Under the pieces are notes generated by a model. That model saw nothing but the letters and a program-made list of their open reading frames with translations, was not told where the DNA came from and did not search any database. From Actinoplanes derwentensis (GTDB lineage Bacteria > Actinomycetota > Actinomycetes > Mycobacteriales > Micromonosporaceae): DNA of 64,000 nucleotides. Positions within the stretch are counted from its first letter, which is position 1; each line of letters opens with the position of its first letter. Shown here in pieces: positions 14,952 through 38,411 of the stretch. The stretch covers positions 6,090,501-6,154,500 of the forward strand of contig NZ_LT629758.1 in NCBI RefSeq assembly GCF_900104725.1, written 5' to 3'. The position numbers and the translations under genes are program-made.

Positions 14952-17900
14952 TTACGCCTTCGCCCGGCGCCCGCGGGTCGGCTTCGCCGGCCGCCAGGAA
15001 GTCATGGCCTCGTCGGTCAAATGCAGCCGGCCAGCGGTTTCGAAAAGGAACCCGGTGTAGGTGTCTGCCGGGGACTCGCCCCAGACCGGATCGAACGCGC
15101 CGTGCCACTGACGCACCCACGGCAGCACCTCGCGCAGACCTGCGAGCAGCGGAAGCAACCGTGCCGCATCCCAGTCATCCTCCTGCTCACGCGCAACGAT
15201 CAAGGTGGACAGGGCCTGCGCCTGCTCCCGCTGATCCCAGCCAGCCCACCCGATCAGCAGCGACGGGGCACCGTCACGGCTGCCCCCCGGATAGGAAATA
15301 AACCGCTCCTTGGGTACGTCGAGCTTGCCCCGATGCCGCCAGTAACTGGTCTTCAAAAAGTCCGCCGAGCCGTACTTCGGCGGCACCGGTATTTTCTTCC
15401 GGAACTCCCGCTTGGCCGCCTCGTCCGGCAACGCGTCCTCCTCGCGCTGCAACTCCCACACGTGCTCCCAGTCGGCCCGCTTCGCCAGCCCGGAATCCTT
15501 GTAACGCAATGCCGCCAGGTGCGGCACATGCTCGTCGGCGATCAGGTCCGCGATTACCTTGCCGAGGTCCTGACCCGGCGCATAAAGACCAGCCACCGAT
15601 AGTACGTCTTCGTCACGCCGCAACTCGTCGGCAAGCTGCGAGGTGGTCAGCGGACGAGGCTGCTCTATACCGTCGACGTGGTGGAACCACAAGTCCCACG
15701 CCTCGCACCGGTCCAGGAGCCAGTCCCGCAGCGCTTTGGCCTGCATTGCGTCCCAGCCCTCAGTGGCCCAGCGGCGCTTGCACTCGGGCCGCTCGATCAG
15801 CGCAATGTTGCGGTTGCCCTCGATGACCGCAATCCGCTGCTTCACCACCGACTGGTACTCGGCCGTCCAGTGCTCAGGCAACTCGGTGATCGGCGTTGAC
15901 CCGTGCCGCGCGAACCACTGCGTCTCCAGGCCTTCGTCACGCATCTTGCGGGCCAGCACGATCTCGAACGCCCGCTCCCCGAGTCGCAACTCGGGCACCG
16001 ACTCAGCCGGAGCGATCAACTCGTCGTCCAGCAACCCGTAGAGCGAGTAGACCTGCCAGTCCAACTCCTCCTGCAGCGCGATCATCCGAGCCCGAATCGA
16101 ATGCCACTCCCGCTCAGCGGCAGACAACCGCTCCCGACTCGGCACCCCAGAAGCCGCGATCTCCGCTGGCCGCACCGCAGCAAGCCGCCGCGCCAGCCCA
16201 TCCAACTTCCGGGTCAACCCCAGCGGGTACGACGTCGGCAGCGGAAACTCCTGCAGCTTGGTACCGGTGAACTCGTAGAAATCTTCGAAAGGAACAGTCG
16301 TCTGACGTGCGCCGCGAGAGTCAACCGTACTGCCTTTGTTGTGACTTACCTGCTTGAGCCAGAAGCAGGCGGTCGAACTGTTGAGCACCCCGAGCAGCCG
16401 CAGGTGATCGTCCTCCGACGCCCCCTCCACCAGCTTAATCACCGGCGCTGAACGGTTGAAGGCCTTGCCACCCCGATCCAACACAAAGTGGTTATGCGTA
16501 GCCACAAACGCGAAAGAAAGAGACCACTCGTTCGCCTTCTCATCTCGCGGAATTTGATGCCATTCAAACCAAGGCCGGGCGTCACTGAAATAGGTCCCTC
16601 GCGAGAATGTAGCTCGGTTTCCGAGATCATTCCTAGAAGGCCACAAGCGTTTCTCATGCTGCGGCATAACGGCTAGCTGAACCAGCCTTCGGTCTGCGTC
16701 ATAGGGGTAGAAAGCGTGGTCTCCGTCAAGAGTCGCCCAGTCGCGCTGCTCATCACCCACCACCAGCCGGCGATGGTAGTCGCCTTCGACTTTCAGGCGC
16801 GCGAAAGCAGCAGCCGGTGCGGTCATGGCTTCGTCTGCGCCCATAACTCCATAGAAGCCGATGCGAAACAAATTTGATCCAAGATTGACGGCGGAGGCAG
16901 TCTCGATCGATTGCAGCAGACCGCCTGCGCCGCCACCGGCCAGACTCCACGGAAAGTTCGCGAGAGCCGACCGAGATGTGTCGGCGACGCTGATCCACTG
17001 ACTTTCGGATCCGGGAGTGTCGACCTGACAAACGATGGCCTGCCATACGAGGCCTTTCCGAGGGTCAGACGGAGCGCTCGGTTCGCCGCGAATACCCATG
17101 ACCGTTCGGATCGTACTGAATCTGCCTACGTTAGTGTTGCGGCCGGCCAGGATTACAGTCGGGGTGCCATGGCCGGGAATGTAGGCGCCGGAAGTGTCGA
17201 TGACGTGCGTCAGGTTAACCTCAAGGGCGAACAGCTTTTCGATCATCTTCTTGCCGAACTCGCGCTTCATGAACGAGTTGGCGGTAATCTGGCCGACGAA
17301 CCCGGCGTTCTTGCCTTCGCCGTCGCCCTGCTTCGCCAGTTGGAAGAAGCGCTGCGCGAATGGGACCGACAGCGCGTACTTGCCGGAGCAGGCGTCGTAC
17401 ATCTCGCGGTAGGCGTCGTTGAGGCCCTTGTCCTTGACCGTGATGTAGGGCGGGTTCCCGACCACGACGTGGTAGCTGCCGGCGGTCAGGATGCCCGGGT
17501 GCTCGGCGACGTCTTCGGTCGCGTAGGCGAACTCGGTCATCGGGTCCCCGCCGAAGAGCGTGCCCGCCCGGTGCTTGATCAGCGAGTCGCCGACTGCCAA
17601 GTGCATTGGGAAGACGTAGTCGGCCGCCTCGGCGAGCGTCGTGATCCCGCTGGCGCGCAGAGCCGCTACCAGCAGGCGGAACCGGGCGATCGCGACCGCG
17701 AACGGGTTGATGTCGACGCCGTGCACCGCGTCCAACGCCAGCCGGACGCGCTCGTGGGCGTCTCGGTTGGGCGCATGTCTTTCCCATTGCTTGAGCAGCC
17801 GATCGAACGCACCGAGCACGAAGTGGCCCGAGCCGCAGGTAGGGTCGATCATCTTGACCTGGTCATGCCCGAACTCGTCGATCGCCGGAGTCAGTGTCAG

Positions 17901-18539
17901 GTCGAGGATGAACTCCTCGACGAACTCCGGGGTTTGTAGGAGGGCGTAGGTCTTCTTGGCGTACTCGGAAAGGTCTTGATAGAGGTCGCCGAGGAACCGA
18001 GTGTCCCAGAGTTCGTCGCGGAAGATGTGCACCAGATCGCCGGACTCGCCGCGGCGGCGCCAGAAGCTGATCAGTTCCTTGGCGGCGTCGTGTGACATCG
18101 GGATCTGGTAGAGCGGGTTGTGCCGCTTGTCGAAGAGCGACTTGCCGGCCTGGGTGCCGCCGATCGCGTCGAACCCCTGGTGCAGCCAGTCGCGCAGCGT
18201 CTTGTCCGGCTGGTCGCGGAAGAACTGCGCCTCCGCCTCCTCGGCCAGCACTAGCCGGTCGCCCGGCCCGGCCAGGAACGGCTCCGGCAGCAGACCGTTG
18301 TCCTCACAGAAGCGGACGAAGACCGTGCCGAGAACCCACGCCACCGCGGCCTGGGTGACCCGCTCGTCGCGCCAGACTGTCCAGGTGGCGGCGGTGCGGC
18401 CGACCTCGAATGCGCGGTCGTACTCGCCGCGCAGCCGGAGGCGCACCTCCTCGACCGACTCGACCTGCTCCCGCAGGTCCTTTTCTAGGGTCTTGACCTG
18501 CTTCTGCAGGTCACTCAAGAGCAGTTTGCGGTCGATCAC
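14952..18539 (-). CDS. pglX: BREX-2 adenine-specific DNA methyltransferase PglX
   Basis: This 1195-aa N6-adenine methyltransferase starts at a GTG. An N-terminal coiled coil (LQKQVKTLEKDL and on) leads to the Rossmann methylase core with AdoMet motif I MIDPTCGSGHF (about 232-242) and catalytic motif IV VVVGNPPYIT (about 359-368). A long C-terminal half, with the YPGG and GWAG segments near the end, probably recognises the target. In BREX, the methyltransferase marks a non-palindromic host site to separate self from non-self. In the Pgl model it modifies phage DNA and is controlled by the PglW kinase. It heads the pglX-Y-Z-brxD-brxHI run. Confidence 0.95.
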   Translation of the reverse strand: MIDRKLLLSDLQKQVKTLEKDLREQVESVEEVRLRLRGEYDRAFEVGRTAATWTVWRDERVTQAAVAWVLGTVFVRFCEDNGLLPEPFLAGPGDRLVLAEEAEAQFFRDQPDKTLRDWLHQGFDAIGGTQAGKSLFDKRHNPLYQIPMSHDAAKELISFWRRRGESGDLVHIFRDELWDTRFLGDLYQDLSEYAKKTYALLQTPEFVEEFILDLTLTPAIDEFGHDQVKMIDPTCGSGHFVLGAFDRLLKQWERHAPNRDAHERVRLALDAVHGVDINPFAVAIARFRLLVAALRASGITTLAEAADYVFPMHLAVGDSLIKHRAGTLFGGDPMTEFAYATEDVAEHPGILTAGSYHVVVGNPPYITVKDKGLNDAYREMYDACSGKYALSVPFAQRFFQLAKQGDGEGKNAGFVGQITANSFMKREFGKKMIEKLFALEVNLTHVIDTSGAYIPGHGTPTVILAGRNTNVGRFSTIRTVMGIRGEPSAPSDPRKGLVWQAIVCQVDTPGSESQWISVADTSRSALANFPWSLAGGGAGGLLQSIETASAVNLGSNLFRIGFYGVMGADEAMTAPAAAFARLKVEGDYHRRLVVGDEQRDWATLDGDHAFYPYDADRRLVQLAVMPQHEKRLWPSRNDLGNRATFSRGTYFSDARPWFEWHQIPRDEKANEWSLSFAFVATHNHFVLDRGGKAFNRSAPVIKLVEGASEDDHLRLLGVLNSSTACFWLKQVSHNKGSTVDSRGARQTTVPFEDFYEFTGTKLQEFPLPTSYPLGLTRKLDGLARRLAAVRPAEIAASGVPSRERLSAAEREWHSIRARMIALQEELDWQVYSLYGLLDDELIAPAESVPELRLGERAFEIVLARKMRDEGLETQWFARHGSTPITELPEHWTAEYQSVVKQRIAVIEGNRNIALIERPECKRRWATEGWDAMQAKALRDWLLDRCEAWDLWFHHVDGIEQPRPLTTSQLADELRRDEDVLSVAGLYAPGQDLGKVIADLIADEHVPHLAALRYKDSGLAKRADWEHVWELQREEDALPDEAAKREFRKKIPVPPKYGSADFLKTSYWRHRGKLDVPKERFISYPGGSRDGAPSLLIGWAGWDQREQAQALSTLIVAREQEDDWDAARLLPLLAGLREVLPWVRQWHGAFDPVWGESPADTYTGFLFETAGRLHLTDEAMTSWRPAKPTRGRRAKA

Positions 18540-18623
18540 CCGATGACTTTAGCCGCCGAACAGGCTGCTGAAGAGGACCGTCTTGGCCTGGTTGTCGACC
18601 GTTTGGCGGAAGATCGCGCCGCT

Positions 18624-19679
18624 ATGCTCGCCCGCGTGACGACCAAGGTGACAACGAAGCAGCTGTCGACGGCGCGTGGCTGCGTTCTCGGGCTTGTGCT
18701 TGGTGACGCCATCGGTGCCGCGGACGCCGAGGTGGCGTCCAGTAGCACACTGCGTGCGACCAGCGCCGCCCAGCTCGCCTGTTTCACGATCGAGGGTGTC
18801 ATCCGGGCGCACGTGCGGATGACACACAAAGGGATCTGTCACCCGCCGGGCTTGGTCTGGCATGCCTACGCACGCTGGGCCAGCATGCAGGGCATTTCTG
18901 GGATCACGCCGTGGGAGAAGGAGGTCTGGCCGGATGGCTGGCTCGCTCAGGTGCCGGTGCTGGCCGCTCGGCGTGGTTCGGCGCCGGCAACTGTCACGGC
19001 GCTGCAGAACGGCACGATGGGCCAGATCGACAAGCCGGCTGGGAGCAGTGTCGGCGCGCACGCGCTGACCCGCGTCCTTCCGGCCGGGCTCGTCGGCGAC
19101 TGGGTTGCAGAGCCTGGCCGCTTCGCGGCGGAGATCGCAGCGACCACCCACGCCGGTGAAGCCGTGCATGCCGCCGCCGTCGGCGCGAGGATCGTCGCCA
19201 ACATCGTCAAGGGCCAGGGCATCGAGGAGGCAGTACAGCAGTCGGAGTCGGAGGGCATGAGCCTTCTGAAGCAGCCGTTCGATTCTCCCGTCGCCTCCGC
19301 CGTGGAGACCGCACGATCTCAACCTCGGCAGACCACGAAGCTGGCCCATCTCACACCCGATGCCCGAGCTGCGGCCGCGCTGGCCGGAGGCGTCTATGTC
19401 GCGCTCTCCTTTCCCGAGCGCGACCAGATCCGCGATGCCCTGCTGTTCGCCGCGTCTGGCAGCAACGGAAACCACGTCGCTGCGGTCGCTGGCGCTCTGC
19501 TGGGTGCTGCCCACGGAGCCGACGCCTTGCCCCTCGACTGGGTGTCCCGATTGGAGCTGGCGTGGGTCGCCGACGTCCTGGCTCGTGACCTCATCGCTGA
19601 GTTCGTCGACAAGCCGTCCGGCACCGAATACACCCCAGGTGGCGATCCGCACTGGTGGAATCGCTATCCGGGCTGGTGA
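18624..19679 (+). CDS. ADP-ribosylglycohydrolase-like protein, probably catalytically degenerate
   Basis: This 351-aa protein belongs by overall pattern to the DraG/ARH fold: GCVLGLVLGDAIGAAD near the N-terminus resembles the family opening, and GNHVAAVAGALLGAAHG near the C-terminus resembles the conserved closing helix. The usual metal-binding TDDT is replaced by a segment reading RATSAAQ, and the usual DTDT before the closing helix reads SNGNH. The binuclear Mg site is therefore probably absent. I chose the ATG at 18624 because the upstream in-frame ATG (18543) would leave only 3 bp to the divergent pglX start and no room for promoters. The GTG at 18636 is also possible. It is embedded in the BREX-2 locus and convergent with the gene at 19704. 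Confidence 0.7.
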   Translation: MLARVTTKVTTKQLSTARGCVLGLVLGDAIGAADAEVASSSTLRATSAAQLACFTIEGVIRAHVRMTHKGICHPPGLVWHAYARWASMQGISGITPWEKEVWPDGWLAQVPVLAARRGSAPATVTALQNGTMGQIDKPAGSSVGAHALTRVLPAGLVGDWVAEPGRFAAEIAATTHAGEAVHAAAVGARIVANIVKGQGIEEAVQQSESEGMSLLKQPFDSPVASAVETARSQPRQTTKLAHLTPDARAAAALAGGVYVALSFPERDQIRDALLFAASGSNGNHVAAVAGALLGAAHGADALPLDWVSRLELAWVADVLARDLIAEFVDKPSGTEYTPGGDPHWWNRYPGW

Positions 19680-19703
19680 TTGACCGCACTGCGGTGCGGG
19701 GGC

Positions 19704-20366
19704 CTACTCGAAGCGTGGCTCAACTGCGGCAGCGAGCCATCGAAGCTGCCCGTTCTTGCCGTCGAGGCTGAAGTAGTCGCGCCAGGTGATCGGGTAGCTG
19801 CCGGACAGGTTCCGTTCGCTGCCAGCGTGGTAGCTGTCTTCGGTGCCCCACCGCAGCAGGCCCGACAGGGTTCGCCCTTCGTGGATCCGGAACGCCTGAT
19901 CGCGGGTGAGCTTGGTGGTCGCGGCCGGTTGCCAGAGCCGCTGGTCGTTGGTCAGCATGATCGCGAGGCCGTTCGACGCTCGGTCGGCTTCGCAGAACCT
20001 TTCCAGCCGGGCGATGTCGAAAACGAAGCCCTGGCGGCCCAGGTCGGTGGCCTCGTGGTTGCGCAGACGGAACGGTTCCCCAGTGGCCGGGTCCGTGCCG
20101 ACCCAGGTCCTGGTGAAGTACTTGAACTCCACCACTGTGCGCCCATACGGTCCGAAGCAGAGCAGGTCGACGTACTCCCGCTCGGCCTGTCGCACCTCCA
20201 ACCGGATGTTGAGGTCCGGCGCCATCTCGTGCAGCACCCAGGCGAAGGCGTGCTGGAAGTCTGCCTCGGAGTGGAAGACCGGCCGTGCCCGGCTGAGTCT
20301 CTCCATGACGATGCTGAGGTCAATGGCTCCCGCGATGAGCGGCATCGGGTTGTCCTGCCGGGTCAT
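19704..20366 (-). CDS. PD-(D/E)xK nuclease-like protein in the pglW operon
   Basis: This 220-aa protein's ATG overlaps the pglW stop by 4 nt, so it is very probably co-translated with the kinase. The N-terminal half shows SEADFQHAFAWVLHEM, LEVRQAEREYVDLLC and VVEFKYF, giving E57, D67, E80 and K82. This is the E, D, (D/E)xK arrangement of the PD-(D/E)xK nuclease superfamily. The rest includes a GFVFDIARLERF helix and a tryptophan-rich tail. It is not one of the six canonical BREX-2 genes. It may be an accessory nuclease or an inactive binding protein. I assign the superfamily from motifs only. Confidence 0.65.
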   Translation of the reverse strand: MTRQDNPMPLIAGAIDLSIVMERLSRARPVFHSEADFQHAFAWVLHEMAPDLNIRLEVRQAEREYVDLLCFGPYGRTVVEFKYFTRTWVGTDPATGEPFRLRNHEATDLGRQGFVFDIARLERFCEADRASNGLAIMLTNDQRLWQPAATTKLTRDQAFRIHEGRTLSGLLRWGTEDSYHAGSERNLSGSYPITWRDYFSLDGKNGQLRWLAAAVEPRFE

Positions 20367-23300
20367 GCGCTAGCTGCGCTGCGGTGTGTGTTCTCCACCC
20401 AGGCGTCCGGGAGGGAGATCCATTCGTTGTCGCCGACCCGGACGACGGTGCCGTCGAGTTTCGGCAGCAGATCCGGGTCTTCGGTCGGGCACAGCAGCCA
20501 CAGGTCGCCGCTGCCGCCGCGGGCCGCGTCCGCCAGTTCGTACAGTCGCTTCATCGCCCGGTAGCGGGCCAGGACTGCCGCGTCGTGCAGCAGAAGCGGG
20601 CCACTGCCGGCCTGGAGTTCGTCGAGCAGTTGCGGCGCGACCGATGCCCACGCCTGCTCCACGTACTCGCCCAGTTTGATTGCCGAGCGGGTGCCGGGTT
20701 CGGCGATGTCCGCGCCGAGCACGGTTTCCCAGGTCGGTCTCGGGCGAGCATCGACCAGGCCGTGCAACGTCACCAGGAATCGGGAGGCAATGTTGAGCGG
20801 CCGGGCGGAGAAGCGCCGGACGAGTTCTTCGCGGGCCAGGGCGTACCGGGAGAGTCGTACGGTCAAGGCCCGGAAACCTCCGGCGGACGCCGCACCGGTC
20901 AGGCGTTCCTCGGAGCGCAGCGCCGAGGCGAGGATCGGAGAGTCCGCGGTCCACGCGGTGGGCGCTGTCGACGCCGATGACCGGCGTCGCACGATGGTCA
21001 TGGACGAGGACGCGGCGGCCTGGGTGGGAGCGGTGTAGTGGTCGCGATTCCAGATCAGCTCGAAGCCGGCCTCGGTCAGCAGGCGGTCAAGGCGGGGGTG
21101 TCCGGGCAACGGCGCGAGGTCCGGGAAGCGGGCGGCGACCCGGTCGGCGATCTGCGCGGGGGTGAGACCGCGCGATTGACCGGGCAGGCCGGCTGGTGGA
21201 AGGACGCCGGCTTGGGCAAGGCGGAGCGCCCGGACGGGATCGAGGTTGCGCGGGTAGATCTCCAGGCGGGCCGTGGCGGCGGCGTTCTCCGAAGCCACCG
21301 CGGCGAGCAGGACCCTACGCCGTTCGTCGATGGCGTCGGCGGCGCCGCCCGGTGCGGTTACGGTCCCGAGGGTACGCAACACGGTGGCGGGACTGGGCAG
21401 CACCTCGTTGCCGGCGAGGCGGTCGGCGGCCTTGCCGAGCGCGTCGGCGTAGTCGAGCAGGGCAGGTGCGGCCGGGGTGTCTGGGCCGTCGTCCTCGCCG
21501 GCCTCCAGCGCCACAAGCAGCCGGTCGCCGTGGCGGCGGGTCAGCAGGCGCGGTTCTTCGGCGAGGGCGTCGATCTCGACGGCGGCGCGGACCGCGGCGA
21601 GTGCGACGGTGTGGCGTAGCTCGTCGCCGGTACGCATGGATCCACGGCTGGTGAGCAGGGCGGTGGCGAGTTCGTCGACGCCCATCACCCGGCCGCCGTC
21701 GCGCAGCAGGTCGATCAGCTCGGTGCGGACGCTGGACACGACCGGAATGTCGTTCCAGCGTTTGCGCTGTTTGCCGAGGATCTGCGCGACCCGACCGGGG
21801 GTGACGTTCAGGGCGGCGGCGACCTGAGGCTGTTGGGGCCAGGGTGTCAGGCCGGGCAGTGTTCCGGTCTCGTCCGGCAAACGCAGCAGGATCCGGGTGC
21901 CGTCGACCTCAGTGGCGTTGCGGCCGTTCTTGGCCGGGATGAGCAGGGTGGCGATCGCGTCCAGGCCCACCCGGACGAGTTCGGCGTCGACGGGGCCGCC
22001 GGAGGATTCGGCGGACGCCTCGGCGGCAGCGCTGCGGCGGGCGTTTGGTGAGGTGGGCAGGGTTTCCCGCTCGGCGAGCCGGGCACGCCAGTCCTTGACC
22101 CGGCGCTGCAGCTCCTGGCGGGTCTTCGCGCCCAGGCCGGGTAGGTGGGCCAGCTTGTTCGCCACGGTGAGCAGGTCACCGACCGTAGCGGCGTCCAGGC
22201 GGTGGGCAGCGGAGACCGCTCGGGGCGTCAGACCGGCGGCTTCCAGGGCAGTGGCCCGGGTCGCCTTGGCGGCGGCCTCGTCGCGGGCGGCCTCAGCGCC
22301 CTCGACATCCGGTTCCTCCTGCGGTTCGGGGTGGTTGGTACCGACCGGGGCACTGGCGTCGGAGCGTCGGAAGACCTGCTGCCAGGCGTCGCGCATGTCC
22401 TTGAGCGAGGCGAACCGAGCGCGGCTGTCACGGTGTAGGGCAAGTTGGAGGAAGTCGACCAAACCGTCACGGATCGCGGGGTCGAATGCTTCGGCGGCGA
22501 GGACCGGCGGTCCCTCGGTGTGCTGCGGATCGGCGCTGCCGTCGCCCCAGCCGGGCAGCTCACCGGAGGCCATCTCGTGCAGGGTGACGGCCAGGGCGTA
22601 CCACTCGGCGTGCTTGTCGTAGACAGGCCGGTTGACCGCGCCCAGGAATGGGTCGAGGTATCGCGGTGTGCCCGCGTTGATCTCCTTGACCGACACCCCG
22701 GCCAGCGAGAAGTCGAAGAGCACGAGTTGGCGGGTGCGATTGGGACGGATCCGGATCGCGATGTTGTCCGGCTTGATGTCGCGGTGGTAGACGCCCTCGC
22801 CTTCCAGGTAGTCCAGTGCACCGAAGAGGTAGTCGCTGTAGGTTTCCAGCTCGTCGACGGTGAGCCGGCCGTCGTCGCGAAGTTTGCGGGCCAGCGTCCG
22901 GTCACCGGCGTGCTCCAGCACGATGATGGTGCGGTCGGCGATCCGCAACGGCTCGGGCCGGGCCAGCCGGATCACCCGGGAGTCGGTCAGCGGGCTCAGG
23001 ACTCGCGCTTCATGGGTGAGACGGCTGGCCTTCTCGTCGGAAAGGCCGACCTTGAGTACTTCGGCGCGGCCGGTGCGGTCGTTGTCGGCGAGGAAGGCAC
23101 GGCAGGTCGAACCTGTCCCGAGCCGCTTACGGACGGTCCATTCGCCGACCTTGTCACCGGAGCGTGCCTCAAGCGGATCAGTCGGCTCGGGTTCCGCCTG
23201 CGCTGGATGCACGGATGGGGGCGACGAAGGTGCGGTCAGCTCCTCCTCGACCAGCTCAAGCATCTCGAGGAACTCGGCGGCGGTCGTCAGCCGCTGAGCC

Positions 23301-24757
23301 GGCACCGGCGCCGTCGCGGCCTGCACGAGCTCGTCTGCGAACTCGGAGATGGAATCGGCGACCGACGAGGCACGCAGGCCGTTGTCGCGGGTCAGGCGAG
23401 ACAGCAGCTCGGGACGCTGCGCAGCTGGAGGCTGCCCGGTGAGGATCAGGTAGGCCAGCGAACCAAGGCCGAAGATGTCCATCGCGACCGGGTCCGGCCG
23501 CGGAGCGGTCATTTCCGGTGCCAGGTACGCCTCCGCTGACCGTTCGAGGTGGGCCGCCGCGTGTGTTGACAGCGCTACCAAGCCGCCGCTGCCATCACTT
23601 CCAGCAGAGTCGGTTCCTCGGGTCGCGACCTGCCAGTCGCTGATCTGCAGTTGCGGAAGCAGCCACGCCTCTTCCTCAGAGCCGCCGCGCCGCTTCGGGC
23701 CTGGGGTGACGAGAATGCTGCGGGCGGACAGTGCCCGATGGTGAAGGTGACGGCGATGCGCGTACGCCACCGTCTCGGCCAACTGGCGGATCATAGTGAG
23801 CCGAGCCGGCGCGTCCAGGCGATCCTGGTATTGGGCCATGTAGTGGTCGAGTCGGATCGATCGCGGGTCGTACCGGAAGATCAGTGCCGGGCCGGCCTCG
23901 TGTGACTCCATCGAGTCGACCTGGACGATGCCGGGGTGGCTGATGCCGTGCAGGACGAGCATCTCCCGTTTGGCCGCGCGCTCGATGCTCGCCCGCTCGG
24001 TCTGCACCGCATTGCGCTCGACCAGGTAGATCCGCACCCGACGGCGTTCACGTTCCAGATCGCGGTGCTTGGCGAGGTGGTCCTGCCAGGTGGGGCCGAC
24101 GTCGAACGGACGAGTCTCCAGTTCCCACGAGCCGATCTGGTAATGCCGACGGCTACGTGCGATGCCGATCTCGGCGAGCAGGTCGGGGAACGCCCGGGAC
24201 ATCTCGGCAGTGACTCGCTGCCGCTCGTCCTGCGGCGGGCGTTGCAACAGCGCACCGATGGTCGGCAGCCGGTTCGCCGGGTTAGGGCCGACCGGCTCGG
24301 GTCCGTAGACACCATGCAGGTGATGATCGGAAAGCTCGACCTGCAGGCCGGGCTTCGACAGGAACACCGCAGCTTGCACGAACGGAATCCGGATAGGCGA
24401 CCCTCGCCGCCGGGAGGCCGCGGTTTGCAGAAGCGACTTGAGCTTCTTCGCCTTGGCATCGGCCAGATGGAGCGGGTTGTCAAAGGTGCGGGTCTGGCTA
24501 GGGCCGTGCTGAATCCAGTTCGAACCGCTGGAAACGAGCCGCCCGTTCAGGCTCTTGATCTCGATGAGATAGAGCCCGCTCGGTGCGGCGACGAGCAGGT
24601 CGACCTCGTACGGGTGGCCGGTCTGCGCGGTGAAGGTGAAGTTTGACCATGCGCGATATGGCTCGGTGTCCGGAAGTAGTTGCTGTACGTACGCCAGAGC
24701 CTCGCGCTCGTGCGCGAACTGCGATGGCGTGATCGTGGTCCACCGGCCTTCTTGCAT
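20363..24757 (-). CDS. pglW: BREX-2 serine/threonine kinase PglW with NERD domain, pseudokinase and kinase domains
   Basis: This 1464-aa protein has an N-terminal NERD nuclease-related domain (E51-V-D53, then EIK with E66 and K68). The first kinase-like domain (about 200-500) has HHRALSARSIL in place of HRD-K-N and SDW in place of DFG, so it should be a pseudokinase. The second kinase domain (about 545-820) has the glycine loop GTGSTCRAF, VLKV lysine, HRDIKPDN and DFS instead of DFG, so it may be active. A helix-hairpin-helix (LAHLPGLGAKTRQEL, about 885) and a helix-turn-helix-like GRVAQILGKQ segment follow. In S. coelicolor, PglW is an active kinase needed for phage growth limitation. It is transcribed apart from the pglX operon, followed by the gene at 19704. 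Confidence 0.95.
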   Translation of the reverse strand: MQEGRWTTITPSQFAHEREALAYVQQLLPDTEPYRAWSNFTFTAQTGHPYEVDLLVAAPSGLYLIEIKSLNGRLVSSGSNWIQHGPSQTRTFDNPLHLADAKAKKLKSLLQTAASRRRGSPIRIPFVQAAVFLSKPGLQVELSDHHLHGVYGPEPVGPNPANRLPTIGALLQRPPQDERQRVTAEMSRAFPDLLAEIGIARSRRHYQIGSWELETRPFDVGPTWQDHLAKHRDLERERRRVRIYLVERNAVQTERASIERAAKREMLVLHGISHPGIVQVDSMESHEAGPALIFRYDPRSIRLDHYMAQYQDRLDAPARLTMIRQLAETVAYAHRRHLHHRALSARSILVTPGPKRRGGSEEEAWLLPQLQISDWQVATRGTDSAGSDGSGGLVALSTHAAAHLERSAEAYLAPEMTAPRPDPVAMDIFGLGSLAYLILTGQPPAAQRPELLSRLTRDNGLRASSVADSISEFADELVQAATAPVPAQRLTTAAEFLEMLELVEEELTAPSSPPSVHPAQAEPEPTDPLEARSGDKVGEWTVRKRLGTGSTCRAFLADNDRTGRAEVLKVGLSDEKASRLTHEARVLSPLTDSRVIRLARPEPLRIADRTIIVLEHAGDRTLARKLRDDGRLTVDELETYSDYLFGALDYLEGEGVYHRDIKPDNIAIRIRPNRTRQLVLFDFSLAGVSVKEINAGTPRYLDPFLGAVNRPVYDKHAEWYALAVTLHEMASGELPGWGDGSADPQHTEGPPVLAAEAFDPAIRDGLVDFLQLALHRDSRARFASLKDMRDAWQQVFRRSDASAPVGTNHPEPQEEPDVEGAEAARDEAAAKATRATALEAAGLTPRAVSAAHRLDAATVGDLLTVANKLAHLPGLGAKTRQELQRRVKDWRARLAERETLPTSPNARRSAAAEASAESSGGPVDAELVRVGLDAIATLLIPAKNGRNATEVDGTRILLRLPDETGTLPGLTPWPQQPQVAAALNVTPGRVAQILGKQRKRWNDIPVVSSVRTELIDLLRDGGRVMGVDELATALLTSRGSMRTGDELRHTVALAAVRAAVEIDALAEEPRLLTRRHGDRLLVALEAGEDDGPDTPAAPALLDYADALGKAADRLAGNEVLPSPATVLRTLGTVTAPGGAADAIDERRRVLLAAVASENAAATARLEIYPRNLDPVRALRLAQAGVLPPAGLPGQSRGLTPAQIADRVAARFPDLAPLPGHPRLDRLLTEAGFELIWNRDHYTAPTQAAASSSMTIVRRRSSASTAPTAWTADSPILASALRSEERLTGAASAGGFRALTVRLSRYALAREELVRRFSARPLNIASRFLVTLHGLVDARPRPTWETVLGADIAEPGTRSAIKLGEYVEQAWASVAPQLLDELQAGSGPLLLHDAAVLARYRAMKRLYELADAARGGSGDLWLLCPTEDPDLLPKLDGTVVRVGDNEWISLPDAWVENTHRSAASA

Positions 24758-25026: not shown

Positions 25027-27639
25027 ATGGGTTCGATCGCGCAGTTTCTTGGGCGAGCGGTGGATTTGCATCGGCAGGCTGCGTCGTTGCTGCTGGATGC
25101 GGAGGCGTCGGTCGCTGGGCTGGAGGATGACCAGTTCGCGGGTGCAGCGGCCGATGGTGAGCTGAGGCGGCTGGTAGCTCAGCTGCAGGCCGTGGCCCAA
25201 GCTGGCCTGCCCGGCTGGCTCGGCATGCCGCTCGACGGGCGGATCGTCAGCCGTCAGCTCGGTCAGGACGCGCGGTCGGGTGGCCCGCTGTTCCTACGGG
25301 TGGGCGATGCTGAGCCGATCCGTAACAGCGTGTTCTGGGCGGCAGCGCCGTTCGTCGGCGCCGGCCACCTGGCAATCGACACCGACGCCCGAGACCGATC
25401 CGTGGCGGCATGGCTGCGCGGTGTCCTGGTGCGCACGATCGCGGCACTGCCGGAGGGCAGCGTGCGGGTGCTGCCGGTGGACGGGGCGATGCTCGGTGCC
25501 GTGTTCACCGCATTCCGGCCGCTCATCGATGCCGAGGCGTGGGCCGCCCCGGCCACCACGCTCGCCGGACTGCGCACCGCCCTGGACGAGGCGGAGCGGC
25601 AGATCACCGCAGCGCAAGCCGGCGATCTGCAGGCACTGCCCGTGCTGCTGATCGCCGTCGCCGCGTTGCCCTCGGGGCATGGGCGTGCCGAGTGGGCGCG
25701 GCTGGCAGCGATCGCTCATGCCGGCCCGGCCGCGCGGGTGCACCTGCTGCTGGCGGGCTGGCCGCCCACGCTCATGCACGGCGACGGGCCACCACGGCTG
25801 GACCACACGACGATGATCAGCTCGGGCGTGGACGGCTGGTGGAGGATGTCCGAGACGCCAGGCCCGTACCGGTTGTCGGCCGACGGCAGCGGTCTTGCCG
25901 CACCGATCCGGCTTGATCCCGGTGCCAGCGAGGACGTGGCAGCCGAGTTCAGCCGCCGGATGGCGGCGACCGCGGCGGTGGCCCGGCGCACGGACTTCGC
26001 GTCGCTGATGCCGGACCGAATCTGGCAGGAGTCGTCCGCGACCGGGTTGCGGGCGACTGTCGGCCGGGACGGGCGGATCCCGTACGAGCTGGTACTGGAC
26101 GACGCGACGCCGCACATGCTGCTCGCCGGGCGATCCGGCGCGGGCAAGACGAACCTGCTGTTGATCCTGCTGTACGCCCTCGCGTCGCGATACTCGCCGG
26201 ACGAGTTGGGTCTGTATCTGCTCGATTTCAAGGAGGGTGTGTCGTTCGTCGAGTTCACGCCCACCCTGAAAGACCCGTCCTGGATCCCGCACGCCCGCAC
26301 GGTCGGCATCGAGTCCGACCGCGAGTACGGGCTCGCCGTCCTGCAAGCCCTGACTCGGGAAATGAACCGCCGCGCCGCCGCACTCAAAGCTGCCGGGGTC
26401 ACCAAGCTGGCCGACCTGCGCGCCAGCACCGACGTGGCGCTGCCGCGCCTGGTGGTCGTGATCGACGAGTTCCAGGTGCTGTTCGGTGCCAACGACACCC
26501 TCGCCCGCGATGCCGTCGCCGCTTTGGAGGACCTCGCCCGCAAGGGCCGCTCCTACGGCATCCACCTCATCCTCGCCTCCCAGACACTGGCCGGGATCGA
26601 AGCGCTGTACACGAAAAAGGACTCGATCTTCGGACAGTTCCCGCTGCGGATCGCGCTGCCCGGCGGCTCCGGCATCCTCGAATCCGGCAACACCGCCGCC
26701 GACGGCCTCCCGGTCGGCTCCGCCGTGGTCAACAACGCCGGCGGCGTCGAGCAGGCCAACCGGACCGTCCGGTTTCCCGAAGCCGACCCGGCCTCGCTCG
26801 CCGCACAGCGCCACATCCTGTGGCAGTCCAGGTCGCCGGTCAACGAGCCGCCCGCGGTGTTCGCCGGCTACGCCGAGCACCACATCGACGACGACCCGCT
26901 CTACCGCGCGCTCACCCCGCAGGTCCGCCGCCGGCAAGCCCTCGTCGGCCGGGCCATCGACGTCGGCTTACCGACCGTCGGCTTCGCCATGGACGCCGTA
27001 CCTGGCCGACACCTGGCCGTCCTCGGCACCTCCACCATCGGCGCGGACGTCCTGCACGCCGCCACGGCCAGTCTCGCCAGCCAACACGAGCCCGGCACCG
27101 CCCGCTTCGTGGTCGCCAGTTTCGCCGCTGTCGCCGACCAGGTCGTCGATGACCTCGTCGCCGCTTTGACCGCTGCCGGGCACGACTGCACCGAAGCCGA
27201 CGGCGGAACAGTTCGCGCGATCCTCGCCGAACTCGCCACCGCTGTGCCCGGCAGGCCGACATATCTGGTGGCGTTCGCCGCCGACGTCATCGTGCCGCTA
27301 CTGGGCGAACGCGGCCCGGAACGCCGTACCGGCCTCGACGACCTGCGCATCGTGCTCCGCCAAGGGCCTGGCCACGGGGTCCACGTGCTGAGCTGGTGGC
27401 GAGTCGCCCGCCGCTTCTCCGACGCCATCGGAGGCTCCGCCGGACGCGAAGACGTGGCCTGCCTGGTCGCGCTCAACGTCCCCGGCAGCGAGCTGTCCTC
27501 GCTGCTCGGTGACCACACGCTGTCCTGGCAACCTCGCTCCAACCGGGCACTGCTGCTCGACCGGCACGACCAACGCCAACGGCTCATCGTGCCGTTCGTA
27601 CGCCCCGGCCGCCACGACGAGATCAACGAACCGGGATGA
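25027..27639 (+). CDS. FtsK/SpoIIIE (EccC-like) ATPase, first gene of an unassigned cassette
   Basis: This 870-aa soluble protein starts at an ATG with a strong GGGGAGG site. After about 300 residues without a recognised motif comes one intact FtsK/SpoIIIE motor: Walker A GRSGAGKT (about 370-377), YLLDFKEGVSFVEF, Walker B LVVVIDEFQ (about 477-485) and HLILASQTLAG. A second C-terminal domain (about 640-860) keeps the EccC-like layout, but its P-loop position reads GTSTIGAD and lacks the GKS/T lysine. No transmembrane segment is seen. Tandem intact and degenerate FtsK domains recall EccC of type VII secretion, which fits the small helical protein encoded next. A DNA-translocating defence or transfer ATPase is the alternative. 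Confidence 0.8.
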   Translation: MGSIAQFLGRAVDLHRQAASLLLDAEASVAGLEDDQFAGAAADGELRRLVAQLQAVAQAGLPGWLGMPLDGRIVSRQLGQDARSGGPLFLRVGDAEPIRNSVFWAAAPFVGAGHLAIDTDARDRSVAAWLRGVLVRTIAALPEGSVRVLPVDGAMLGAVFTAFRPLIDAEAWAAPATTLAGLRTALDEAERQITAAQAGDLQALPVLLIAVAALPSGHGRAEWARLAAIAHAGPAARVHLLLAGWPPTLMHGDGPPRLDHTTMISSGVDGWWRMSETPGPYRLSADGSGLAAPIRLDPGASEDVAAEFSRRMAATAAVARRTDFASLMPDRIWQESSATGLRATVGRDGRIPYELVLDDATPHMLLAGRSGAGKTNLLLILLYALASRYSPDELGLYLLDFKEGVSFVEFTPTLKDPSWIPHARTVGIESDREYGLAVLQALTREMNRRAAALKAAGVTKLADLRASTDVALPRLVVVIDEFQVLFGANDTLARDAVAALEDLARKGRSYGIHLILASQTLAGIEALYTKKDSIFGQFPLRIALPGGSGILESGNTAADGLPVGSAVVNNAGGVEQANRTVRFPEADPASLAAQRHILWQSRSPVNEPPAVFAGYAEHHIDDDPLYRALTPQVRRRQALVGRAIDVGLPTVGFAMDAVPGRHLAVLGTSTIGADVLHAATASLASQHEPGTARFVVASFAAVADQVVDDLVAALTAAGHDCTEADGGTVRAILAELATAVPGRPTYLVAFAADVIVPLLGERGPERRTGLDDLRIVLRQGPGHGVHVLSWWRVARRFSDAIGGSAGREDVACLVALNVPGSELSSLLGDHTLSWQPRSNRALLLDRHDQRQRLIVPFVRPGRHDEINEPG

Positions 27640-27695
27640 GCTCGCGGCTGTAGACCTCTATGCCACTACCGCGCTTCGAGAAGGAGGACACGCCG

Positions 27696-27956
27696 ATGTC
27701 CGCGATCGATGAGGTGATCGCCGCCTTGCAAGGGGTGATCGACGAACTCAACGACACCAGCAACGCCGCCAACGCCGCAGCCTCGAAAACCGACGAAGCC
27801 GTGAACCAGGCCGTCGCCCTTGGCGCTACCGCCACCGTCGCCGGCCTCACCACGGTCAAGGAGAGTATCGAGAAGCTCTCCCAACAGGTGCACGGCACGA
27901 TCGAGATCGCCAACGACACCATCAGCCAGGCCCGAGCCGTCGCCGACGGCACTTGA
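27696..27956 (+). CDS. Small all-helical protein (DUF6244-like) of the FtsK cassette
   Basis: This 86-aa acidic protein starts at the ATG at 27696, with AAGGAGG 8 nt upstream; an in-frame ATG at 27660 has no such site. The whole chain is predicted helical and rich in Ala, Asn and Asp, with heptad-like spacing and the segment ALGATATVAGLTTVKESIEKL in the middle. It resembles the small proteins I recall from Micromonosporaceae as DUF6244, though I could not check this. Size and placement after an EccC-like ATPase suggest an ESX/WXG100-like substrate or partner, but the WxG motif is absent. Confidence 0.75.
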   Translation: MSAIDEVIAALQGVIDELNDTSNAANAAASKTDEAVNQAVALGATATVAGLTTVKESIEKLSQQVHGTIEIANDTISQARAVADGT

Positions 27957-28100
27957 AGAGGTAGCGGCGGGGGCAGCACAGGACCGCCCGCACGTTCTCC
28001 GCGGAAACCCAAGCGCCTGACCAAGAAGGAGCGACGAAGGAGAGCGGCAGCGCGACGCGTCGCTGAGGAGCAGCACGCCAAGGCGCCGCCACGCCGATAC

Positions 28101-28277
28101 TTGACTCCGACCGCAATCGGGGCAATGGGAGCGGCGACGGCGGTCGCCTGGTCGCCGTGGCAGGAGTTCATGCCGGTGCCGGTGAAAGCGGTAGCCGGCG
28201 TGACGATCGCTGCGATCGCTGCAGTCGCCGCGATCCGATCTTTCGTCGACGAGCTACGGAAGAACCGAAAGGACTGA
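28101..28277 (+). CDS. Small membrane protein with uncertain start
   Basis: An open frame ends at TGA 28275-28277, overlapping the next ATG by one base. It has two hydrophobic stretches (TPTAIGAMGAATAVAW and VAGVTIAAIAAVAAI) and a basic tail (LRKNRKD). From the TTG at 28101 it encodes 58 aa; an ATG at 28125 gives 50 aa. The same frame stays open back to the stop of the 86-aa gene (TGA 27954-27956) and encodes a basic stretch (KRLTKKERRR), with no ATG or GTG available. The start is therefore either non-canonical (CTG 28017 or TTG 28101), or the upstream stop is read through. Confidence 0.45.
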   Translation: MTPTAIGAMGAATAVAWSPWQEFMPVPVKAVAGVTIAAIAAVAAIRSFVDELRKNRKD

Positions 28278-28735
28278 TGGTGGGAAAGATTGACTTCAGT
28301 GTGGAGCCACTCGTACGCGAGGCGCTTGGAGCGGTAGTCGGCAAGGACCTTGCCCGCCTGCAACAAGCTCTCGGCGCGTTCACCAGCGATGAGGCCGCTA
28401 TTCACGGCCTGAACCTCGCTACTGCGGTGTCGCTCTATGTCCTGTACGACCTCAACGAAGGCGCACGGTCGACCAACGAGGAGCTCGCTGAAATCGCAGG
28501 AGAGGTTGCAACCGCTGAAAAGTGGGTCGGCGTAGCCGAGGACGAGGTCAACAAGCACCTTCAGGCAGCTCACTCCGGAACGCGAGTCGATCAGATCCTG
28601 CCGATGGAACGCGTGATCATCCTTGCTTACGTCATCGCGGCCAATCTCCTTGCCTCCTACTGCGATGAAGGCGAGCACTGGTGGGATCTCCTCGATCGGG
28701 CTGAGGCTGCGATCGAAGCTTCGCCGGAACGGTGA
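28277..28735 (+). CDS. Uncharacterised 152-aa protein of the FtsK cassette
   Basis: The ATG overlaps the previous TGA as TGATG, typical of translational reinitiation, which decides this start over an in-frame ATG 120 nt upstream. The protein is acidic and mostly helical (VEPLVREALGAVV, LATAVSLYVLYDLNEG, ELAEIAGEVATAEKWV), with a C-terminal helix ending EGEHWWDLLDRAEAAIEA. The segment RVIILAYVIAANLLA is hydrophobic but short and may be a buried helix. I do not recognise the family. Confidence 0.7.
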   Translation: MVGKIDFSVEPLVREALGAVVGKDLARLQQALGAFTSDEAAIHGLNLATAVSLYVLYDLNEGARSTNEELAEIAGEVATAEKWVGVAEDEVNKHLQAAHSGTRVDQILPMERVIILAYVIAANLLASYCDEGEHWWDLLDRAEAAIEASPER

Positions 28736-28756
28736 TGTTCGTGATGCGGGGCCGCC

Positions 28757-29392
28757 ATGAGATGGCCTGAATACACTGACCTCGCGCGCCAACTCGCCGA
28801 TGCCCGCAGCCAGGAAGAGGCGAGGTCTACGCAGGTCCGGCAGCGAGCCCTCACCGGCCGGGCCGAGATCGACAAGCTCAAACGACGGCTGAACGTTCAA
28901 GGGGAACACCTCCCTGCTCTGGCGCAGCGGTTACGGGAGCCACATCCGTCGTTCGGCGGCACAGCGCGAACTGGGCTGAACGACGTCGATGAAGCACTTC
29001 GGCGAGCCTGGGAGGCGGTGAACCAGGCTGACGTTGAGGCCCGGAAGGCCGAGGAACGCGGCATGCGGCCTGCTCTCTTCCCGACGATGTCGCCAGTAGG
29101 CCGTAACGCGCTGGTCTACTCTGTCGCGGCGTTCTGCACGTGGCTGGTTGCCTGCGGTCTGTTCATCCTCGCTCCGTCCGATGGGGCTTCGGTAGGGACG
29201 TTGTTGTGGTCGATGTGCGGCCTGCCTGCTATCGCGTACTTCGCTGCCTACATCGTCATCTCGGTGTTCGGTCGGCCGCGTGCGCAGTCGTTGGGCGACG
29301 TCGAGCATTCCGCGCGGCTGGGCGGGCTGATCTGCTTCGGCGGTAGCTTCCTCGCCTGGATCCTGGTTCTGGCGGTGACGGCGCTGATTTGA
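28757..29392 (+). CDS. Coiled-coil membrane protein, last gene of the FtsK cassette
   Basis: This 211-aa protein begins 21 nt after the preceding stop. The first 100 residues are charged and helical (LARQLADARSQEEARSTQV, DEALRRAWEAVNQADV) and could form a coiled coil. Three hydrophobic helices follow: about 114-135 (LVYSVAAFCTWLVACGLF), about 145-168 (LWSMCGLPAIAYFAAYIVI) and about 187-210 (ICFGGSFLAWILVLAVTAL). It may anchor the cassette's ATPase complex at the membrane. Function unknown. Confidence 0.75.
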   Translation: MRWPEYTDLARQLADARSQEEARSTQVRQRALTGRAEIDKLKRRLNVQGEHLPALAQRLREPHPSFGGTARTGLNDVDEALRRAWEAVNQADVEARKAEERGMRPALFPTMSPVGRNALVYSVAAFCTWLVACGLFILAPSDGASVGTLLWSMCGLPAIAYFAAYIVISVFGRPRAQSLGDVEHSARLGGLICFGGSFLAWILVLAVTALI

Positions 29393-35383: not shown

Positions 35384-36081
35384 GTGGCAGCCACCACCGC
35401 CCGCTCCCGACGCCGCCGCCCACGCACCGGTTTCGGCGACACCCCCACCGGCACCCGCCGCGTCGCCCTCTACCTGCGCCGCTCCACCGACGACGAGCAC
35501 CAGCCGTTCTCCATCGACGCCCAACTCGCCGCTCTCACCTCGTACGTCAACTCTCAACCCGGATGGATCATCGCCGGAGAACCCTTCACCGACGACGCAT
35601 CCGGAGCCACCACCGAACGCCCCGGCCTGCAACGAGCCCTACGCGCCGCCGCAGCCGGCCGCTACGACGTACTACTCGTCTACCGCGTCGACCGGTTCTC
35701 CCGCCGCCTGTCCGACCTGCTGAACCTGCTCGGCCAACTCGAAGGCGCCGGAGTCGCGTTCACCTCCGCCACCGAACCGTTCGACACCTCCACCTCCATC
35801 GGACGCATGCTCGTCCAACTCCTCGGCGTCTTCGCCGAATTCGAACGAGAAACCATCATCGACCGCGTCATCAACGGAATGAACGCCAAAGCCGCCAAAG
35901 GAAAATGGCCCGGCGGTAACCGCCCCTACGGCTACCTCATCAACCGGGAAACCCAGAAACTCGTACCACACGAACACGAAGCGGCGATCCTCTCCGAAAT
36001 CGTCCGCATGTACGTGAAGAAACGCCTCGGCACCCGCGCCATCGCCGACGAACTCAACCGGCGCGGCGTCACCAACCGCAC
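35384..36081 (+). pseudogene. Large serine recombinase, 5' part, interrupted by an insertion sequence
   Basis: GTG 35384 with GGAAGGA 8 nt upstream begins the resolvase domain. RVALYLRRSTDDE holds the nucleophile S34, then VYRVDRFSRRLSDL and GVFAEFERETIIDRV. The recombinase domain starts with LSEIVRMYVKKRLGTRAIADELNRRGVTNR and is cut at 36081. Joined to 37427-38378 it would be a 549-aa serine integrase in frame (698 + 952 nt = 550 codons). The truncated gene still reads into the insertion sequence to a stop at 36193, giving a 269-aa product with the catalytic domain but without the DNA-binding C-terminus. Confidence 0.92.
36072..36081. repeat. Target-site duplication, left copy
   Basis: The decamer ccaaccgcac precedes the left end of the insertion sequence and recurs at 37417-37426. 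A 10-bp duplication fits ISAs1-family insertions. Confidence 0.9.
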
Positions 36082-36097
36082 CACGGTCGTTTCAACA

Positions 36098-37294
36098 TCA
36101 TCTGGTGAGACCGAGGATGGTGAATGGCCTGGTCATGTCGCGGTTGGCCCAGCGGGTGGCTTCGGTGATGTCGGTGCGGCCTGCCAGGCGTAGGGCGTTG
36201 ATGGCGAGGTTGCGTAGCGATGCGAGGACGCGGGGTCCGGAGCGGGTGCGGACGTGGGAGTGGTCCTCGCGGTAGCAGGTGTCCCTGATGAAGTGCAGGG
36301 TTTCGATGGCCCAGTGGCCGCGGTTGAACGCGGCCAGTTCGGCGGGTCCGGCTTGGTCGGCGGGGTGGCTGGTGACGCCGAGTTGTGCGGCTGCGGACTG
36401 TTTGCCGTTGCTGTGGGTGACGTAGCGTTCGATCAGCCAGACCTGTTTGACGTGCGGGAACGGCAGGCCGGGTGGAGTGGGTAGGACCCGGATGGTGGGG
36501 CGGGTGGTGCGGCCGTGCCCGGTGTCAGTGCTCTCGTGGCCGATCGGAGTGTCGGTCCAGGGCAGGGCGTCGAGGGCGTCGAACAGGGCGTGCCGGTTCT
36601 CTTTGACCGGTAGGACGAAGTGGCCACCCTGCTGGTGGATGAGTTCGGCGGTGGCTTTGACGGTGTGCAGGGCGTCGGCGGTGACCGTGACGTCGCGTAG
36701 GTCGAGAGACTCGAGCAGGGCACGGGCGGTGGCCGGTTCGCGGGTCTTGGCGCCGTCGGTCGGCGCTTGGGCGATGACGACGGCCGCTGATCCCTGGTGC
36801 GGTGGGCCGGCCAGAGCGGACAGCAGGTGCAGTTGTTCACCGTCGATGTCGACGGCGCCGCGGACGGTCTTGCCGTCCAGGCGCACCTGGATCGGGGTGT
36901 CGGTGCTGGTGGCGGTCTGCTGGGTGGTGGTCCACTCGGCGATCACCGCGTCCAGGACATCGGTGTCGGTGTCGGTGCAGACCCGCCAGAGTGTCGAGCG
37001 TGATGGCCGCCCTGCCGGGCGGGCTTCGGCCCGCGTGTACAGGCCGTCGAGGATGTGGCAGGGCACGTCGGCGACCCAGCCGCTCATCGCGCTGTAGCCC
37101 TTCAAACCGGCTACCGTGGCCGCCGCGACCAGCGCGAGCACGACCGCGACCGGATGATCACGGCCCTGGTCCGAACGGCCGTCAGAAACGGCGAGGAACA
37201 ACTCCAGCAGACCGTGACACGAAGGCGTGAACGAGGCCTCGCCGACGGTCGCCGACGATGCTGGATCGGTGGTGGGGATGACAGACTGCGGCAC
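36098..37294 (-). CDS. ISAs1-family DDE transposase
   Basis: This 398-aa transposase starts at a GTG. Family features include an N-terminal domain (LLELFLAVSDGRSDQG, VAAATVAGLKGYSAMSGW), VRLDGKTVRGA with the first catalytic aspartate, VTADALHTVK with the second, and the C-terminal GHWAIETLHFIRDTCYRED with the glutamate, followed by LRNLAINALRLAG. The length is normal for ISAs1 transposases, with no frameshift, so it should be active. A 13-bp perfect inverted repeat lies immediately upstream of the start (37296-37351). Confidence 0.93.
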   Translation of the reverse strand: MPQSVIPTTDPASSATVGEASFTPSCHGLLELFLAVSDGRSDQGRDHPVAVVLALVAAATVAGLKGYSAMSGWVADVPCHILDGLYTRAEARPAGRPSRSTLWRVCTDTDTDVLDAVIAEWTTTQQTATSTDTPIQVRLDGKTVRGAVDIDGEQLHLLSALAGPPHQGSAAVVIAQAPTDGAKTREPATARALLESLDLRDVTVTADALHTVKATAELIHQQGGHFVLPVKENRHALFDALDALPWTDTPIGHESTDTGHGRTTRPTIRVLPTPPGLPFPHVKQVWLIERYVTHSNGKQSAAAQLGVTSHPADQAGPAELAAFNRGHWAIETLHFIRDTCYREDHSHVRTRSGPRVLASLRNLAINALRLAGRTDITEATRWANRDMTRPFTILGLTR

Positions 37295-37295
37295 G

Positions 37296-37351
37296 ACGAA
37301 GCTCCGTTTGAACCAGTTCCGTGGAAAGACCTGGTCTCAACGGAGCTTCGT
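37296..37351. repeat. Inverted repeat abutting the transposase start
   Basis: The arm acgaagctccgtt (37296-37308) is exactly complementary to 37339-37351, with an imperfect inner stem (gaaccag and ctggtctc). It lies just upstream of the transposase GTG at 37294. It would fold only in transcripts entering from outside and could limit read-in expression, as known for other insertion sequences. Confidence 0.65.
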
Positions 37352-37416
37352 CCATATCCGACACGCTGAAGCCGCCACCATCACTCACCGCAACTATCGA
37401 TCTTGAAACGGCCGTG

Positions 37417-37426
37417 CCAACCGCAC
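37417..37426. repeat. Target-site duplication, right copy
   Basis: The second copy of ccaaccgcac directly follows the right end of the insertion sequence. Sequence after it resumes the recombinase frame (T-G-K-K-W-S-G-M-T). Confidence 0.9.
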
Positions 37427-38378: not shown

Positions 38379-38411
38379 GTCCCCTGCTCTAACCCACTGA
38401 GCTACCGCCCC
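38338..38411 (-). tRNA. tRNA with CAT anticodon (Met or Ile2)
   Basis: A 74-nt cloverleaf on the minus strand: 7-bp acceptor stem (ggggcgg with ccgcccc), D-arm with TAGCTCAGTGGGTTAGAGCA, anticodon loop CTCATAA, T-arm with GCGGGTTCGAGTCCCGC and discriminator A; CCA is not encoded. CAT may be elongator Met or lysidine-modified Ile2. The sequence does not let me choose. The recombinase gene ends inside it, which suggests that it is the integration site. Confidence 0.93.

Follow-up and report, generated by a model that had tools for sequence, protein, structure and literature searches.

Which function is served by five closely spaced genes that lie beside a bacteriophage exclusion (BREX) type 2 locus in Actinoplanes derwentensis? 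We analyzed this cassette in a window of 64,000 nucleotides, the whole stretch of DNA studied, from the 10.65 Mb genome of this member of the Micromonosporaceae (G000 in our sample); the nearest named cassettes are those of other Actinoplanes strains. The five open reading frames (ORFs) span positions 25027-29392 of the plus strand. Based on sequence comparisons and predicted models, we propose with moderate confidence that the cassette encodes a minimal relative, in split form, of the type VII secretion motor, i.e., a translocation module with a putative role in export. Its genes are the following:

25027..27639, plus strand: EccC-like three-lobed ATPase, 870 amino acids (Pfam, TIGR03924, AlphaFold 2 model, Foldseek, VIA, motif count, hydropathy)
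27696..27956, plus strand: p86, 86 amino acids, helical by eye, in the slot of an ESAT-6/WXG100-type partner (weak DUF6244 match, weak profile links, dN/dS)
28125..28277, plus strand: small protein with one transmembrane (TM) segment, 50 amino acids from the ATG at 28125 (ORF, hydropathy, alleles in relatives)
28277..28735, plus strand: p152, 152 amino acids, seven helices, polymorphic (predicted model, relatives)
28757..29392, plus strand: p211, N-terminal half coiled-coil-like by eye, followed by three TM-like segments (hydropathy, relatives)

The intergenic gaps measure 56 bp between the ATPase gene and p86, 168 bp between p86 and the TM gene, and 21 bp between p152 and p211, while the TM gene and p152 share one base (TGATG overlap). 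The first possible start of the TM ORF, when ATG, GTG and TTG are considered, is a TTG at 28101, which would give 58 amino acids. A preliminary description of this DNA had reported five tightly packed genes divergent from pglW and next to BREX-2, and both the ORFs and the PADLOC matches of the neighboring genes bore this out. The genes for the ATPase, p86, p152 and p211 look coding because of their ratios of nonsynonymous to synonymous divergence (dN/dS) against the Actinoplanes copies (0.10-0.18, 0.11-0.23, 0.10-0.42, and 0.14-0.36, respectively); the value for the TM gene (0.35) derives from a single near-identical copy only.

In the AlphaFold 2 model (predicted local distance difference test score, pLDDT, 89.1), the ATPase shows an EccC-like layout with a degenerate, DUF-like N-terminal lobe (residues ~55-318), one live FtsK lobe (~320-600) and a degenerate C-terminal lobe (~610-860), the last of which is EssC-D3-like and extends to the end of the chain. 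The top Foldseek match of the model was EccC (4nh0, 1.4e-30), and the likeness to type VII EccC spanned the full length. At the sequence level, the protein matched Pfam FtsK_SpoIIIE (E 1.2e-26) and TIGR03924 EccCa (1.9e-28, well under the cut-off of that model). Walker A (368-375) and Walker B (IDEF, 479-482) are located in the middle lobe, and a single Walker A in the middle of three RecA-like lobes was present in all 34 aligned sequences, including that of the window. Motifs and model together indicate that the middle lobe is probably live and the outer lobes are dead. Of the one live and one dead motor domain described previously, the live one was thus recovered, and the dead ones number two, flanking it. 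No TM-like stretch was detected by hydropathy across the 870 amino acids.

A separate membrane protein with three predicted TM segments, p211, is encoded together with the ATPase in most loci examined. Hydropathy placed its TM-like segments at residues 119-137, 150-168, and 191-209, in agreement with the earlier assignment; its coiled-coil character and the all-helical nature of p86, also part of that assignment, are judgements by eye. A match to the p211 profile on the same strand and within 1.3 kb downstream of the ATPase gene was found in 46 of the 67 loci with enough flank, and 12 of the remaining 21 had another ORF with a TM-like stretch in that place. The hairpin profile matched within 7 kb of the ATPase gene in 28 of 47 well-flanked loci; the counts for both profiles are partly circular because the profiles were built from such neighbors of the ATPase. 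In the source genome, which has five ATPase loci, the hairpin profile matched at four places (E < 1e-7), three of them part of the query; none was more than 2 kb away from an ATPase locus. In the order typical of the window, p86, the TM gene and p152 stand between the ATPase gene and p211. The order is changed in locus L017, where p211 directly follows the ATPase gene and the p86-TM-p152 trio is divergent.

As to co-occurrence elsewhere, which the preliminary description had left to be checked, the five-gene set does recur in other Actinoplanes loci, namely in A. xinjiangensis (L016), A. utahensis (L013), A. siamensis (L014) and, at 5.43 Mb, in the source genome itself (L009). The last is a decayed second cassette, in which the ATPase start codon is lost, an internal TGA is present and p211 is shortened. 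A similar set was seen in Haloactinopolyspora (L029), where an ATPase 33% identical to that of the window is accompanied by a protein with one TM segment, by proteins of 86 and 128 amino acids (the latter with a stretch judged hydrophobic by eye), and by a p152 relative of 152 amino acids (E 5e-6). Relatives of the ATPase were present in 135 of 150 Micromonosporaceae genomes. Phylum scans, which scored few candidates per genome, returned the ATPase in 7 of 396 genomes (three being the source genome and two of its family) and the hairpin protein in 2 of 296, the source genome included; a plasmid search gave one record, from Rhodococcus.

The neighbors of several relatives suggest that in these the motor family serves toxin-antidote loci. 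In L130 (ATPase 48% identical), the product of the divergent gene has 172 amino acids, with DUF6244 (1.8e-14) at its end; this gene is followed by a WHH/colicin-DNase ORF (2.1e-13, 3.7e-13) and by immunity genes of the SUKH (4.3e-20, 1.3e-10) and Imm1 (6.8e-7) families. L173 encodes a DUF6244 protein of 340 amino acids (6.3e-12), in which the part behind DUF6244 has no Pfam match; the gene overlapping that of this protein falls into one cluster with an L130 SUKH gene. In Saccharimonas (L030), the ATPase, membrane and 86-aa genes are followed by a gene for a 263-aa protein with a C-terminal ADP-ribosyltransferase domain (1.8e-8), whose N-terminus matched the hairpin profile weakly (0.03). Among the fetched loci with the DUF6244 family PF19757, one DUF6244 protein carries a DddA-like deaminase tail (2.2e-29) beside Imm1 (2.6e-22), and six further ORFs downstream of DUF6244 genes, picked by eye, comprised four CdiA_C, one DddA-like and one matchless ORF.

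Several other gene arrangements were noted around the relatives. Hsp70-like genes lie upstream of the ATPase gene in L015 and L168 (by Pfam) and in L030 (by clustering only), and a TPR gene that matches DnaJ under the cut-off is present in L168 as well. A longer operon in Mycobacterium and other actinobacteria (L031-L033, L035) combines the ATPase gene and further clustered genes with genes for an AAA ATPase (assigned by Pfam in L031) and for a hairpin protein of 86 amino acids. The cassette of the core type (L010, L129, L175-L178) has a fixed chromosomal place beside ftsH (assigned by Pfam in L010 and by clustering in the other loci); folE, recognized by eye, is adjacent too, and several of the loci have conserved genes (clusters c108-c110) on the opposite flank. 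Divergent from the core ATPase gene of L010 are genes for YbaB-like, WXG100-like (0.0067, under cut-off) and WXG100_2 (5.6e-9) proteins (9367-10996), clustered relatives of which occur in L178. In L220 (G075:C87), a DUF6244-DddA-like toxin gene and Imm1 are located ~1 kb from a PglX gene.

The Pfam family closest to p86 is DUF6244 (PF19757), with a match that covers nearly the whole protein and stays under the cut-off (E 0.0017; 19.3 bits, cut-off 31.6). Pfam gave no WXG100 match for p86, and none of the 23 small proteins in alignment A1 matched this family either; a weak ESAT-6 profile match (E 0.022) stood alongside other helical chains. PADLOC returned two weak matches for p86 (BrxB, 0.0032; ZorA, 0.013), and PHROGs nothing beyond weak matches of p86. 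Across the 150 Micromonosporaceae genomes, PF19757 had 59 matches in 33 genomes, 14 of the 59 within 7 kb of an ATPase match. Profile comparisons linked the small proteins to different degrees: with the p86-type profile, the median scores of the DUF6244 and core types (12.2 and 12.3 bits) slightly exceeded the highest score of shuffled sequences (11.5), the medians obtained with the core-type profile (12.4 and 11.7 bits) did not exceed the shuffled maximum of 13.0, and the DUF6244 profile gave at most 9.1 bits on the p86 types versus a shuffled maximum of 9.3. By hhalign, p86 aligned with the core types over 42 residues (E 2.9e-7) and poorly with DUF6244 (E 0.0033). The p86, core and DUF6244 small proteins occupy the same slot and may share an ancestor. 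The term DUF6244 was not found in the literature searched.

The TM gene and p152 form the variable part of the cassette. L016 shares 97-99% identity with the window in all five proteins (TM protein, 98.8%). In L013, L009 and L014, the ATPase is 94, 91, and 80% and p86 is 97, 93, and 76% identical, respectively, whereas the TM protein (30-42%) and p152 (40-53%) are far more diverged, and in all three the DNA similarity to the window ends 4-5 bp past the p86 stop codon. Synonymous divergence between the window and L013 is 0.14-0.33 before the end of p86 and 1.05-1.31 behind it. The break at the end of p86 is seen in eight of the ten cassette pairs; the window and L016 represent one allele. The L013-L009 pair aligns through this point (81%, 77 gap positions), so clean block exchange does not hold for every pair. 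The likeliest explanation of these sequence patterns is that the region behind p86 has been exchanged. The four allele types of p152 share 32-50% identity. The predicted model of p152 (pLDDT 90.6) matched nothing in the PDB at E ≤ 0.001, and the TM protein reaches a hydropathy of 2.01 across 19 residues. Relatives of p152 were found in 8 of the 150 genomes at 11 places, five of them within 7 kb of an ATPase gene and eight within 1.5 kb of a hairpin-type gene; conversely, 9 of 71 ATPase loci have p152 nearby.

Among related type VII variants in the literature searched, two came nearest. Footnote 6 of Table 1 in Zhang et al. (2012, PMC3482391) lists solo-WXG systems with a YueA-like ATPase of three HerA/FtsK domains, the middle one alone active, as "mobile versions of T7SS" (type VII secretion system) in lineages other than actinobacteria. 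As far as the footnote describes these systems, the cassette resembles them in its three FtsK lobes with Walker A in the middle one only, its small partner and its apparent mobility, and differs in being actinobacterial, in lacking a WXG100 match for p86 and in having p211 and the TM/p152 pair in addition. A Pseudomonas locus that our scan picked up (L040) fits the footnote as far as tested, with a 921-aa ATPase, one Walker A and WXG100 (3.1e-7), and also carries VWA, PP2C and kinase genes. In the window, WXG100 was absent from the five cassette proteins and ten others scanned, and none of these 15, a subset of the window genes, was a VWA, PP2C or kinase protein. The neighboring pglW matches the PD-T4-6 models, which we take to represent a kinase. 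According to Garrett et al. (2024, PMC11217815), the subtypes T7SSa-T7SSj comprise EccC/EssC plus EsxA, and T7SSc-j have membrane-bound ATPases with four NTPase domains and WXG100. With these the cassette shares the EccC-like motor, the small partner and, near some of its relatives, toxin and immunity genes.

Several observations weigh against a type VII relationship. The model of the ATPase has three lobes instead of the four NTPase domains (DUF plus D1-D3) of type VII motors, the membrane part is the separate protein p211 instead of a TM anchor of the ATPase itself, and p86 lacks a WXG100 match. PF19757 had no match at 1e-6 in the source genome or other sampled genomes of its genus, no toxin was seen in the window cassette, and most cassettes of the window type adjoin defence genes (see below). 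A gene with an EccB or YukD domain is likewise missing at the locus: all seven EccB and seven YukD-domain matches in the source genome are more than 100 kb from the window cassette (EsaA and EssB were not searched), and the YukD nearest to any of its five ATPase loci is ~13 kb from the copy at 8.09 Mb. Because of these differences in WXG100, fourth lobe, TM anchor and EccB/YukD-type genes, the cassette, which may work like known T7SS variants, is not a member of them, and clear membership of a characterized secretion system, which would have spoken against the novelty claimed in the preliminary description, was not found. Of the minimal type VII-like machine proposed there, the EccC-like nature along the whole ATPase, a motor with several FtsK-type lobes and EccC as best Foldseek match, was upheld. 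This proposal is better supported than the membrane-linked defence module offered beside it, because of the whole-length EccC-like ATPase, the membrane protein and small partner, and the toxin/immunity genes near some relatives. In such a machine, p211 would tether the motor to the membrane, ATP would be burned by the live lobe while the dead lobes hold substrate, and p86 would be an ESAT-6-like substrate or co-substrate. The TM protein and p152 would be a strain-variable pair, either cargo with antidote or an adaptor for cargo, and the Actinoplanes copy, apparently located on an integrative element carrying BREX-2, would come into play when cells or mobile elements compete.

A rather unlikely alternative is a membrane-bound anti-phage module, in which the motor and p211 watch the membrane or incoming DNA, p86, the TM protein and p152 provide sensor and effector, and BREX-2 is co-carried defence cargo. 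The BREX-2 locus (4907-24757, minus strand) comprises BrxHI, BrxD, PglZ, BrxC/PglY, PglX and PglW with strong PADLOC scores, and five of the seven ATPase-hairpin-p152 cassettes stand beside defence genes. The neighbor is BREX-2 in the window, in L013 and, joined by Leo genes, in L016; L116 has DrmA/DrmB and weak ZacA/ZacB matches, and L009 has a methylase gene as well as an AAA gene. However, the window, L013 and L016 are one element lineage within this count, which leaves out the p152-bearing L161 and L029, and the flanks of L014 and L017 contain no defence gene by eye (PADLOC was not run on them). The allele exchange described above would suit an arms race, and a lone p152 gene lies inside the BREX-2 locus of L166, 249 bp from PglX; p152 was within 10 kb of PglX at two of the 41 PglX places found in 36 of the 150 genomes. 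Against this, the ATPase was within 10 kb of PglX at the window's own place alone, among the ATPase matches listed, which are the stronger ones and are lacking in the genomes of 12 of the 41 places. BREX-2 partnership as a general rule was therefore discarded; although the cassette adjoins BREX-2 and pglW is divergent from it, its genes are no regular member, and BREX-2 looks like a fellow passenger, a neighbor rather than a partner. The near universality of the ATPase in Micromonosporaceae also argues against a defence module, as do the PADLOC matches, which for the ATPase (SspH, mad8, mad3, HerA models) are confined to the live lobe, are weak for p86 and are absent for the TM protein, p152 and p211. 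Two further genes of this region were noted. To the left of BREX-2, a 1397-aa protein (462-4655) has TPR repeats, a weak STAND NTPase match and no PADLOC family at 1e-10; within the BREX-2 locus, an ADP-ribosylglycohydrolase gene (18543-19679) is located on the opposite strand.

The cassette appears to travel on an integrative element together with BREX-2. To its right follow GntR, DUF2637, replication-relaxation and serine-recombinase genes, common to L016 and mostly to L013, which run up to the 3′ end of a tRNA-Met gene (38335-38411). Similarity to other genomes of the genus ends at this point (~38337) in 22 of 24 loci and continues past it in L193 and L196. In L016, the same cassette stands beside the Leo genes and a BREX-2 that differs from that of the window (37.5% identity in a PglZ piece). 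The left end was not found: candidate matches were a GC-rich hairpin repeat, and DNA of L180 gave only that stretch and one short match. Support for a complete, two-ended element is confined to its right edge. The serine recombinase (35384-38378) is in two pieces (Resolvase; Recombinase plus zinc-ribbon), with a 398-aa ORF on the other strand between them (36098-37294); it is one 573-aa ORF in L016.

This setting, and the FtsK motors that best match the live lobe when taken as a single domain, would also suit a transfer motor, i.e., an FtsK/TraB-like pump for DNA that moves the element between mycelia, aided by Spd-like membrane proteins. FtsK/TraB DNA pumps of actinomycete integrative elements share the FtsK-type live lobe and the place beside integrative-element genes. 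The cassette ATPase differs from them in two extra dead lobes, in the EssC-D3-like end lobe, which would leave no room for a winged-helix DNA-recognition domain behind it (a search aimed at this domain was not made), and in having close relatives at chromosomal places. In several genomes, the core-type copy is fixed beside ftsH with no element noticed there, and toxin and immunity genes adjoin some relatives; we thus consider a transfer motor unlikely. That the ATPase simply belongs to a chromosomal EccC-like family with accidental further neighbors here is already very improbable: although gene order and content vary and p152 is infrequent, the ATPase-p211 pairing is kept over large divergence, and the set occurs at five Actinoplanes loci, with a similar one at L029.

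Returning to the translocation module, it is possible, and proposed here tentatively, that the cassette represents a further type VII-like subtype with a soluble dead-live-dead EccC core and a separate membrane subunit but no EccB/EccD-type parts. This subtype would be common in Micromonosporaceae and reach Saccharibacteria, and here a mobile element would deploy a polymorphic TM/p152 pair, cargo or antidote, beside phage defences. If the proposed reading is true, a type VII-like machine needs little, namely a single soluble motor together with a single membrane protein and a single small partner. DUF6244 would gain a likely role as the domain that heads bacterial toxins, and a gene family common in Micromonosporaceae, of which no description was found in the literature searched, would become open to direct tests. 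The locus would also show a mobile element bearing a type VII-like module beside BREX-2.

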